Source: Paenibacillus alvei (lineage in GTDB: Bacteria > Bacillota > Bacilli > Paenibacillales > NBRC-103111). Taken from it: a stretch of 64,000 nucleotides of DNA. The translations under genes and the position numbers were made by a program. The first letter of the stretch is position 1; each line of letters begins with the position of its first letter. The notes beneath the pieces were generated by a model. It was not told where the DNA came from and did no database searches. It worked only from the letters and a program-made list of their open reading frames with translations. Shown piece after piece: positions 25,637 through 63,592 of the stretch. The stretch lies in assembly GCA_945881905.1 (NCBI GenBank), contig CAMCVV010000004.1, positions 1-64,000 of the forward strand, written 5' to 3'.

Positions 25637-25682
25637 AAGGTTGTATTTCAAAATGGAAACATTTTGAAATACAACCTTTTTT
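25637..25682 (+). terminator. Strong terminator of the sdhCAB operon
   Basis: Perfect 18-bp stem (arms 25637-25654 and 25661-25678) with loop GGAAAC and six T. It probably also serves the convergent CDF gene. Confidence 0.93.
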
Positions 25683-42228: not shown

Positions 42229-42265
42229 AACAAGCGAGAGAATATGTTTCTCTCGCTTGTTTTTA
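42229..42265 (+). terminator. Terminator of the subtilase gene
   Basis: Stem AACAAGCGAGAGAA / TTCTCTCGCTTGTT followed by TTTT, 57 bp after the stop codon. Confidence 0.88.
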
Positions 42266-42804: not shown

Positions 42805-42851
42805 TAAAATAAAGCTGGTTTTAAGAACGACAACGTCCTTAAAACCAGCTT
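42805..42851 (-). terminator. Terminator of the CDGSH gene
   Basis: Perfect 14-bp stem AAGCTGGTTTTAAG/CTTAAAACCAGCTT; on the minus strand TTTATTTTATTT follows. Confidence 0.88.
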
Positions 42852-47435: not shown

Positions 47436-47475
47436 AAGGCATATCGCTTCAGGTTATGCTGAAGCGATATGCCTT
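47436..47475. repeat. 17-bp perfect inverted repeat without a T tract
   Basis: AAGGCATATCGCTTCAG and its exact complement are separated by GTTATG. It follows the SDR remnant by 4 bp but is not followed by a run of T on either strand. It could be the remaining terminator of the lost SDR gene or a binding site. Confidence 0.75.
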
Positions 47476-60427: not shown

Positions 60428-61300
60428 ATGTTAGTTCTCGCTCTAATCATCTCAACAACCATCGTATATGCATTAGCAAATGGTACGAAAGCCCCTGATG
60501 TATATGTTGTCCAAGGAATGCTCCAATCACTCGGGGAATACGCAGGGAATATGAACGGGAAATATGGCATTGAAACAGTGTCTGCGATCAAAACTTTCCA
60601 ACATAAATCAGGGTTAACCGTGACGGGAACAGTAGATAATCAAACACTGGAGTCCATGTTAGGGGCATATGGTACTCTAAAGCTTACGCATCTCGTGCAA
60701 CCCATGAGTACTCCGCAAGTCATCGCGAAACCGTCACCTACACCAACAGTTTGGTCAACGGGCATACCCTCGAGTCTGCCAACATCAACACCAGTCGCTA
60801 CACCACGAACGACACCAGTCGCTACACCACGAACGACACCAATTGCCACACCACGAACGATACCAGAAGCAGTGCCGAACCATCTATCTGAATCATCTTT
60901 AGGTGCGGACGTAAGTCTGTCCCTTGACGAAAAACAAATGATCGACCTCATTAATCTTGAACGAATCAATGAAGGTCTAGCTCCATTGTCTGCAGATGGA
61001 CCCCTCACGAAAGTAGCTCGATTGAAGAGTGAAGATTTGATTGCGCAAAGCTATTTTGATCATCAATCACCGCGATATGGGTCACCCTTTGAGATGATGA
61101 AACGATACGGGATTATGTACCAAACAGCTGGTGAAAACTTAGCATGTCATCAAACAACGAAGCAAGCGCATACCGCATTAATGAATTCACCGGGTCATCG
61201 CGCAAATATTTTACATGAATCCTATACGCATATGGGTATTGGGGTGATAGAGGGAGGCCCTTGTGGTAAGATGTATACACAATTATTTATAGGAAACTAA
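60428..61300 (+). CDS. Secreted CAP-domain protein with peptidoglycan-binding domain
   Basis: Exported protein of 290 aa: hydrophobic signal segment (residues 1-16), a peptidoglycan-binding type 1 domain (about 25-80, VVQGMLQSLGEYAG and ETVSAIKTFQHKSGL), a Thr/Pro-rich linker (about 100-145) built from a 24-bp tandem repeat, and a CAP/SCP domain (about 165-290, LINLERINEGLAPLSAD, YFDHQSP, GENLACHQ and HRANILHESYTHMGIG). This layout resembles spore- or wall-associated YkwD-type proteins. ATG 60428 has only GGTAGGG 3 nt away, and the frame stays open upstream with a basic segment; the true start is uncertain. Confidence 0.85.
   Translation: MLVLALIISTTIVYALANGTKAPDVYVVQGMLQSLGEYAGNMNGKYGIETVSAIKTFQHKSGLTVTGTVDNQTLESMLGAYGTLKLTHLVQPMSTPQVIAKPSPTPTVWSTGIPSSLPTSTPVATPRTTPVATPRTTPIATPRTIPEAVPNHLSESSLGADVSLSLDEKQMIDLINLERINEGLAPLSADGPLTKVARLKSEDLIAQSYFDHQSPRYGSPFEMMKRYGIMYQTAGENLACHQTTKQAHTALMNSPGHRANILHESYTHMGIGVIEGGPCGKMYTQLFIGN
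60788..60859 (+). repeat. 24-bp tandem repeat in the CAP-protein linker
   Basis: Three consecutive 24-bp units at 60788-60811, 60812-60835 and 60836-60859. Units 1 and 2 are identical; unit 3 differs at three positions. Each encodes TPVATPRT or a close variant, so copy-number changes keep the frame. Confidence 0.9.
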
Positions 61301-62623: not shown

Positions 62624-63592
62624 ATGGTCCCTGTGGAATTTCTCTCCGAACATCTCATTCGATTAAAAATACCATTACCTTTTGCGTTGCGTTACGTAAA
62701 CTGTTATCTCATACGTGGAAGTAGAGGATATACAGTCATTGATCCCGGCTTACGTACGAAGGAAGCTGAAGTCTTGTGGCTCGCTGTCCTAAGCGAGCTA
62801 CGCGCAATGAGTCAGCACGTGGAGCAAATCGTACTGACTCACCACCATCCCGATCATTACGGGATGGCAGGGTGGCTGCAAGAGCGCACGAATGCCCCGG
62901 TTCTCTTATCCGAGACCGGGATAAGGCAAGCAGCGCTCTTGTGGCGCGACGAGCAACCGCTCTCTGCGCGGTTGCTCGAGCTGTTTGCTCGTCACGGCTT
63001 AGCGCGTGACCAGCAAACTGAGATGACGAAGCATATGCAAAGCTTCGTCGAGATGGTCAGCCCACACCCTGAGGTCACGGTGTTGGCTGAAGGTGCGGTG
63101 CGCTTCGGCGATGGCTTATACGAAGCCATACAGACGCCTGGCCATGCGGCTGGGCATATGTGCTTCTATAACGCCGAAGAAAAGCACATCTTGTGCGGCG
63201 ACCATGTCCTGCCGCACATATCGCCCAACGTAAGCTTCCTTCCGGGAGTGGAAGCTAATCCGCTCGGCGCATACCTCATTAGCTTGCAAAGCATCAGCAA
63301 GCTAATGCTCAACATGGCTTATCCGGGTCACCGTGAGCCATGGCCTGATTTTGCAGAGCGAGCTTTGGAGATTATTGCTCATCATCAACAAAGACTTCTG
63401 CAGATGATTCATTGTTTGCATCACCCGTTAACTGCCTATGAGGTGTGCCTTATGATATTTGGTCAGCAACTGAACACACATCAATTACGGTTTGCATTAG
63501 CGGAAACCATTGCTCACTTGGTCTACTTAGAGAACAATCACCTCATCATGTCTGTGGATGTAGAGGAAAGCGTGATTCGGTTTTCGCGATAA
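62624..63592 (+). CDS. MBL-fold metallo-hydrolase with structured, GC-rich centre
   Basis: Metallo-beta-lactamase-fold hydrolase, 322 aa. Metal motifs are intact: THHHPDHYG (HxHxDH, near residue 75), TPGHAAGHMCFY near 172, CGDHVLPH near 190, and YPGHREPW near 235; a C-terminal extension (about 245-322) is winged-helix-like. Family functions include thioester or lactone hydrolysis; substrate unknown. ATG 62624 starts one base after the methyltransferase. Codon and base use change sharply inside the gene: the middle third is GC-rich and full of inverted repeats, the ends match the genome. Confidence 0.87.
   Translation: MVPVEFLSEHLIRLKIPLPFALRYVNCYLIRGSRGYTVIDPGLRTKEAEVLWLAVLSELRAMSQHVEQIVLTHHHPDHYGMAGWLQERTNAPVLLSETGIRQAALLWRDEQPLSARLLELFARHGLARDQQTEMTKHMQSFVEMVSPHPEVTVLAEGAVRFGDGLYEAIQTPGHAAGHMCFYNAEEKHILCGDHVLPHISPNVSFLPGVEANPLGAYLISLQSISKLMLNMAYPGHREPWPDFAERALEIIAHHQQRLLQMIHCLHHPLTAYEVCLMIFGQQLNTHQLRFALAETIAHLVYLENNHLIMSVDVEESVIRFSR
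62776..63342 (+). repeat. Array of about 15 consecutive inverted repeats inside the MBL gene
   Basis: Stems read directly: 62776-62801 GTGGCTCGCT/AGCGAGCTAC; 62808-62841 TGAGTCAG/CTGACTCA; 62845-62867 CCATCCCG/CGGGATGG; 62879-62941 CAAGAGCGC/GCGCTCTTG; 62950-62978 CGAGCAACCGC/GCGGTTGCTCG; 62983-63018 GTTTGCTCGTCACG/CGTGACCAGCAAAC; 63025-63049 GACGAAGC/GCTTCGTC; 63057-63090 TCAGCC-ACACC/GGTGT-GGCTGA; 63111-63129 ATGGCTT/AAGCCAT; 63158-63189 ATGTGCTT/AAGCACAT; 63192-63218 TGTGCGGC/GCCGCACA; 63233-63256 AGCTTCC/GGAAGCT; 63277-63307 CATTAGCTTGC/GCAAGCTAATG; 63313-63342 CATGGCT/AGCCATG. They follow one another with little gap. Confidence 0.88.

Follow-up and report, generated by a model that had tools for sequence, protein, structure and literature searches.

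The closest precedent for the hairpin patch described here lies in the mitochondrial genes of hairworms (Nematomorpha), which contain coding palindromes with repeats up to 284 bp and for which conversion between arms has been proposed (PMC6649704). The two systems share perfect inverted repeats, arms that both code for conserved protein, the absence of indels, and gain and loss between species (PMC6649704). The hairworm palindromes, however, are organellar and span tens to hundreds of bp, whereas the present hairpins lie in bacterial chromosomes as chains of GC-rich 7-15 bp stems whose positions are kept over genera.

Template switching at quasipalindromes is known from E. coli (PMC7202029), from coding genes of yeast (PMC8604942) and from RNA genes (PMC8794818). 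As in the present patch, an imperfect repeat becomes perfect through multi-base copying of the opposite arm, with amino-acid replacements (PMC7202029, PMC8604942), and the short distance between the arms of such products is matched by a stem excess that is confined to loops of up to about 20 nt. These mutations are known as single events at single sites, whereas the patches reported here extend through many genes, are long-lived and are synonymously conserved. In RNA hairpins, template switching was proposed as a mutational route to compensatory double changes, which occur here as well; those hairpins belong to RNA genes with selected structures, whereas the present ones lie in protein genes with no sign of sense-strand RNA structure (PMC8794818). 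Further, mutation at the ntrB hotspot of Pseudomonas fluorescens is believed to be biased by a single-strand hairpin that depends on synonymous letters of the gene, a similar arrangement, but with one site and one mutation instead of at least 10 hairpins per gene on an evolutionary time scale (PMC9234803).

A 2026 survey of 118,019 genomes located perfect inverted repeats mainly in intergenic regions, and the word Paenibacillus is absent from its text (PMC13155455). No publications on such patches in Paenibacillaceae were found in the open-access literature. The chains differ from both quasipalindrome correction and the hairworm palindromes in scale and form: many bacterial genes are affected, each with at least 10 short hairpins, and the state persists across genera.

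The hairpin patch and its host gene

The window (the whole 64,000-nucleotide stretch of Paenibacillus alvei DNA that was analysed) contains an MBL-fold metallo-hydrolase gene with a chain of consecutive stem-loops (Table 1). A preliminary description had counted about 15 inverted repeats in this patch; all of the stems that it named are in place, together with about ten more. Its view that the hairpins overlie a protein that still works is likewise borne out, as the reading frame is intact, both Pfam domains are present and the ligand motifs are invariant among homologues. The metal ligands of the protein are encoded by the hairpin arms themselves. The patch has a GC content of 57%, compared to 40% for the window, and the GC3 of the host gene rises from 0.34 before the patch to 0.67 inside it, falling to 0.44 after it. 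The patch DNA has no second copy in its own genome, and no Rfam match was found for it at E <= 1.

Table 1. Host gene, hairpin patch and individual hairpins (window positions), with further patches in the same genome (locus:positions).
Feature	Position	Strand	Description
MBL-fold metallo-hydrolase gene, host of the hairpin chain	62624..63592	+	ORF; Pfam Lactamase_B 1e-27, B_lactamase-like_C 1.8e-14
Hairpin patch	62776..63342		about 14 stem-loops in series; GC 57%, GC3 0.67
Hairpin 1	62776..62801		10-bp arms, one mismatch, loop 6; identical 7-bp core at this position in L002
Hairpin 2	62808..62841		12-bp arms, one mismatch, loop 10; stems at 62809-62837 in L002-L007
Hairpin 3	62845..62867		perfect CCATCCCG stem (62845-62852/62860-62867), loop 7; over metal-binding HHHPDH codons
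Hairpin 4	62879..62941		perfect 9-bp outer stem CAAGAGCGC/GCGCTCTTG; inner hairpin at about 62896-62925
Hairpin 5	62950..62978		perfect 11 bp CGAGCAACCGC (62950-62960/62968-62978), loop 7
Hairpin 6	62983..63018		14-bp arms, one mismatch, loop 8; perfect 15-bp stem after rewriting in L033
Hairpin 7	63025..63049		perfect GACGAAGC stem, loop 9
Hairpin 8	63111..63129		perfect 7 bp, loop 5
Hairpin 9	63158..63189		perfect 8 bp, loop 16; competing fold 63156-63221
Hairpin 10	63192..63218		perfect TGTGCGGC stem (63192-63199/63211-63218), loop 11; over CGDH codons
Hairpin 11	63233..63256		perfect 7 bp, loop 10; competing fold 63249-63288
Hairpin 12	63277..63307		perfect 11 bp CATTAGCTTGC (63277-63287/63297-63307), loop 9; paired with different letters in L002-L004
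Hairpin 13	63313..63342		perfect 7 bp CATGGCT, loop 16
Hairpin patches with local GC rise elsewhere in the same genome	L249:5110-6465, L246:17214-18167, L248:1575-2999, L239:13016-15223, L235:13337-14929, L254:62-586		in hemL-, hemC-, bioA-, metG-like and other genes

Perfect stems with loops of 3-20 nt were counted in the 567 bases of the patch and compared to the expectation for a first-order Markov sequence. As had been claimed, they exceed chance: there are 13 stems of at least 7 bp (0.75 expected), 8 of at least 8 bp (0.19 expected) and 2 of 11 bp (0.003 expected). Codon-preserving shuffles of the whole gene (n=500), the check that the preliminary description had proposed, fall short of the observed number, with a mean of 0.64 and a maximum of 4 stems of at least 8 bp, compared to the 8 observed. 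Moreover, the MFE of the patch is -280.8 kcal/mol on the + strand, compared to -214.3 +- 7.9 kcal/mol in codon-preserving shuffles (z -8.4), and the - strand reaches a z of -7.9. The stem excess is present only at loops of 3-20 nt, with a 6-9 fold peak at 5-10 nt; pairing at longer range is near background.

Conservation among homologous genes

Homologues from other Paenibacillaceae genera, with 55-66% amino-acid identity, have hairpins at the same codon positions with changed letters. For example, the stem at 63277-63307 reads CATTAGCTTGC in the window gene, GCAGCCTGC in L002 and L003, and CCAGCCTGG in L004. The hairpins at 63025-63049, 62845-62867 and 63192-63218 recur in most of the homologues compared, and the stem of hairpin 3 is identical in six of seven close homologues. 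This conservation in many species rules out a single-gene accident.

The folding energies of 80 named MBL homologues were surveyed against codon shuffles. In the species nearest to the window gene, they lie about 4-13 SD below the shuffles, and most of the remaining homologues are near zero SD. The structured nearest species include Paenibacillus aestuarii, sedimenti, eucommiae, aceris, alba, ferrarius, qinlingensis, albiflavus, chitinolyticus, lutrae and radicibacter, among others. In the protein tree, 19 of 20 structured MBL genes form one clade (support 1.0); the exception, P. cremeus L045, is moderately structured and lies outside this main clade. In the alignment, the length of the patch region differs little between structured and unstructured homologues (mostly 576-585 nt, up to 606). 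A repeated or mobile element is ruled out, the patch being single-copy and having no indel relative to its homologues.

Changes in the stem arms

Changes in both arms together were observed 202 times, compared to 97 if the arms were independent. Among the double changes that keep Watson-Crick pairing, 78 of 133 are of the transversion type, for which G-U intermediates offer no route. Further, multi-base tracts that equal the reverse complement of the opposite arm, and that bring amino-acid replacements, are found in L033, L034, L044, L045, L051 and L067; these tracts are examples, without an event-by-event statistical test. In L033, the 5' arm of hairpin 6 has changed from TTtgcCCgGCAcGGC to TTCTTCCAGCATGGC, which pairs with the 3' arm GCCATGCTGGAAGAA over 15 bp and replaces Ala-Arg by Phe-Gln. 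Loop inversions were looked for as a mark of template switching and none were found; only switching between strands is expected to leave them, and they would disrupt the protein.

In structured genes, third-position divergence is 0.189 in stems, compared to 0.313 outside them, where stems were defined from one species group and divergence was taken in the other group. The same columns in unstructured species diverge by 0.547 (stem) and 0.553 (outside). As plain homogenisation does not slow substitution, the slower divergence of stems indicates biased correction or selection. A correction biased towards G-C would also account for the GC3 in the patches of the window's own, AT-rich genome, which is 0.65 in stems and 0.47 in loops and spacers. 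In two related genomes, G020 and G014, GC3 is high across the entire patch and not in stems only, and a regional GC effect is also present there.

Strand symmetry

Once the energies of codon shuffles are subtracted, the coding strand folds no better than its complement (net +4.4 +- 1.8 and +1.1 +- 1.8 kcal per 600 nt); for the 23S rRNA of Paenibacillaceae, the raw difference between the strands is -36 +- 2. Single internal stem mismatches of the G.T and A.C types number 23 and 24 in the MBL genes, 51 and 35 in the other patches, and 33 and 10 in the 23S loci; the non-MBL patches were chosen by their Watson-Crick stems, which biases them towards symmetry, and the MBL genes were chosen by homology but are related and hence non-independent. 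Across aligned structured genes (60-70% identity), there are 1139 G.T and 1092 A.C stem mismatches. The expected signature of a sense-strand RNA, with G-U in excess of A-C and better folding of the coding strand, is therefore not seen. Two minor observations point the other way: a stricter pairwise count places internal G.T above A.C (27/16 and 22/7), with more A.C at the stem ends, and RNAalifold scores the coding strand better than its complement.

Overall, four tests (energies, mismatch types, double changes and loop architecture) favour DNA over RNA, which suggests that the pairing is a property of the DNA more than of the mRNA, and that a process that copies or preserves hairpins shapes codons and even amino acids.

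Some of the 23S rRNA genes in G003, G006, G019, G021 and G024 match their model piecewise (e.g. 566-2044 and 2045-2912), which suggests split, interrupted or partial copies.

Similar patches in other genes and genomes

Perfect stems per ORF were compared to codon shuffles in an ORF scan. ORFs of ordinary GC have no stem excess, and the GC-richer ORFs of the structured clade and of the relatives G020 and G014 have an approximately 3-4 fold excess. The overall ratio to codon shuffles is 1.02 in the loci of 61 other species of the family and also 1.02 in 150 kb of E. coli K-12. G020 and G014 contain about 10 structured ORFs per 400 kb; from a reading of the proteins, with no family search, these include, among others, the RNase R tail, an M42 peptidase, QueE, an ABC transporter, the CCA-adding enzyme, Tex, a thiolase and RlmH.

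About one third of the window's own genome was read, and any count of patches for the entire genome is thus extrapolated. In this third, patches occur in hemL-, hemC-, bioA- and metG-like genes as well as in a small number of others, most of them with a local GC rise to 54-64%. An impression from about 440 kb that the MBL patch is nearly unique in its genome was overturned by hemC, hemL and others in the next 400 kb. In hemC, hairpins recur at the same codons (e.g. 462-487, 582-603 and about 637-670) across several genera. For the M42 peptidase, G020 and G013 have a structured gene while the window's own genome, G023 and G014 have an unstructured one, and genes therefore gain or lose the structured state. 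The patches are confined to ORFs but leave the first ~100 bp free; most weaken towards the stop codon, and in long genes they occupy a local stretch.

The hairpin phenomenon reaches beyond the MBL clade. In particular, the relatives G006, G018 and G008, used as controls, contain single structured ORFs and are thus partly unclean; single structured GC-rich ORFs lie at L207:11301-12614, L220:14341-15288 and L203:14096-15580 in G006, G018 and G023, while the MBL gene itself is unstructured in G006 and G018 and structured in G023. The observation is thus larger than first claimed: the chain is conserved over many species, its stems are synonymously conserved and other genes carry patches. The alignment of homologues and the search for similar patches, both proposed in the preliminary description, yielded conserved pairing and patches in other genes.

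Across 40 genomes, neither the loss of SbcCD, RNase HII or ExoVII nor the gain of a reverse transcriptase is associated with the trait, and both were rejected as causes; nearly all of the genomes have SbcD, RNase HII and ExoVII, and the distribution of reverse transcriptase does not track the trait.

The window's own genome (2.4 Mb, 99.6% complete) is reduced, the relatives compared having about 4-10 Mb. Its QueE homologue, L162 (G000:C2:89075-89818), has a match that spans an in-frame TGA and TAG, and may be a pseudogene or two joined frames.

Origin of the hairpin chains

The reading preferred here, with a probability of about 0.47, is that the patch belongs to a set of Paenibacillaceae coding hairpin chains that are made and kept at the DNA level by homogenisation of the arms, which is probably GC-biased. 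Short quasipalindromes within a gene would fold into hairpins on single-stranded DNA and, where the arms differ, polymerase template switching or in-hairpin repair, the enzymatic routes that we infer, would copy one arm onto the other and perfect the stem. If mismatches were resolved towards G-C, then stems would stay GC-rich and change more slowly; and if better stems folded more readily, the process could locally reinforce itself. Selection for translation initiation would keep the 5' ends free, and coding constraint would block loss by deletion, an argument taken from hairworm mitochondria (PMC6649704).

Arm homogenisation at the DNA level is supported by the strand symmetry, the paired arm changes, the templated tracts, the limit on loop length, the gain and loss by gene and lineage, and the GC3 of stems. 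Against it stand the slower synonymous divergence in stems, which is unexpected from unbiased homogenisation alone, and the positions kept over genera, as well as the strict G.T excess, the RNAalifold result, the missing loop inversions, the patch-wide GC3 in G020 and G014, and the lack of a causal gene gain or loss. A wider statement is put forward more tentatively: a clade-typical DNA-level process, either GC-biased intra-strand arm conversion or selection for DNA hairpins by a putative protein, may install and keep chains of at least 10 hairpins in ordinary genes over genera, and so determine synonymous codons and some of the amino acids.

It is less likely that the chains reflect selection for in-frame local mRNA structure, where transcript hairpins under purifying selection would act by slowing elongation, by making the message more stable or more compact, or by binding a protein. 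Such selection would explain why stems are synonymously conserved, why positions are conserved with changes that keep pairing, why patches are restricted to ORFs with the first 100 bp spared, and why the strict mismatch count and RNAalifold lean towards the coding strand. However, that strand lacks the energy advantage that is large in 23S rRNA, G.T and A.C are nearly balanced overall, many double changes are of the transversion type, multi-base rewriting replaces amino acids, and the genes affected are unrelated housekeeping genes that vary with lineage. The preliminary description had offered three causes and chosen none; with little or no sense-strand asymmetry, selected mRNA structure loses ground, template switching gains from the arm-copying tracts that fit it, and a DNA-level cause is favoured. 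Rather unlikely is selection for DNA hairpins or cruciforms, in which a protein or process uses the chain and Watson-Crick pairing is kept on both strands alike. The combination of strand symmetry with stem conservation and the narrow window of loop lengths agree with it, but the stems have no obvious common sequence and lie in functionally unrelated genes, orthologues in close relatives lack them, and there is no candidate protein.

The patches are GC-rich, and in G020 and G014 their GC3 is high throughout, as would be expected if the stems simply resulted from high GC or from regional GC-biased gene conversion, with nothing acting on hairpins. As the full cause this is contradicted and very improbable, though it may contribute: shuffles with exactly the same GC and codon use contain 3-4 fold fewer stems, ORFs of matching GC richness in other species have a small excess at most, and positions and pairing are conserved. 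GC alone was ruled out on the first two of these grounds. Inserted palindromic elements (Rickettsia palindromic elements, byp, REP-like) would place hairpins into coding sequences at many genomic sites, as found here; they are contradicted by the near gap-free alignment of structured with unstructured homologues, and with arms that encode conserved protein including metal ligands, and patch DNA that is single-copy and without an Rfam match, such an origin has almost no likelihood.

If arm copying at the DNA level fills genes with lasting hairpins, then conserved pairing and double changes in coding DNA do not on their own prove that an RNA is functional, codons and amino acids can be dictated by local mutation for long periods, and GC differences between genes within a genome gain a new cause. 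If the stems are selected instead, many Paenibacillus genes carry an additional function at the DNA or mRNA level. The species are named and many are cultured, making the question directly testable under either reading.

Other features of the window

Isolated perfect inverted repeats of 14-19 bp with short loops lie at window positions 25637-25678, 42229-42261, 42812-42851 and 47436-47475, and are possibly terminators. At 60428-61300, the translation reads as an extracellular SCP/CAP-like protein, whose two parts are joined by a short tandem VATPRTTP repeat.
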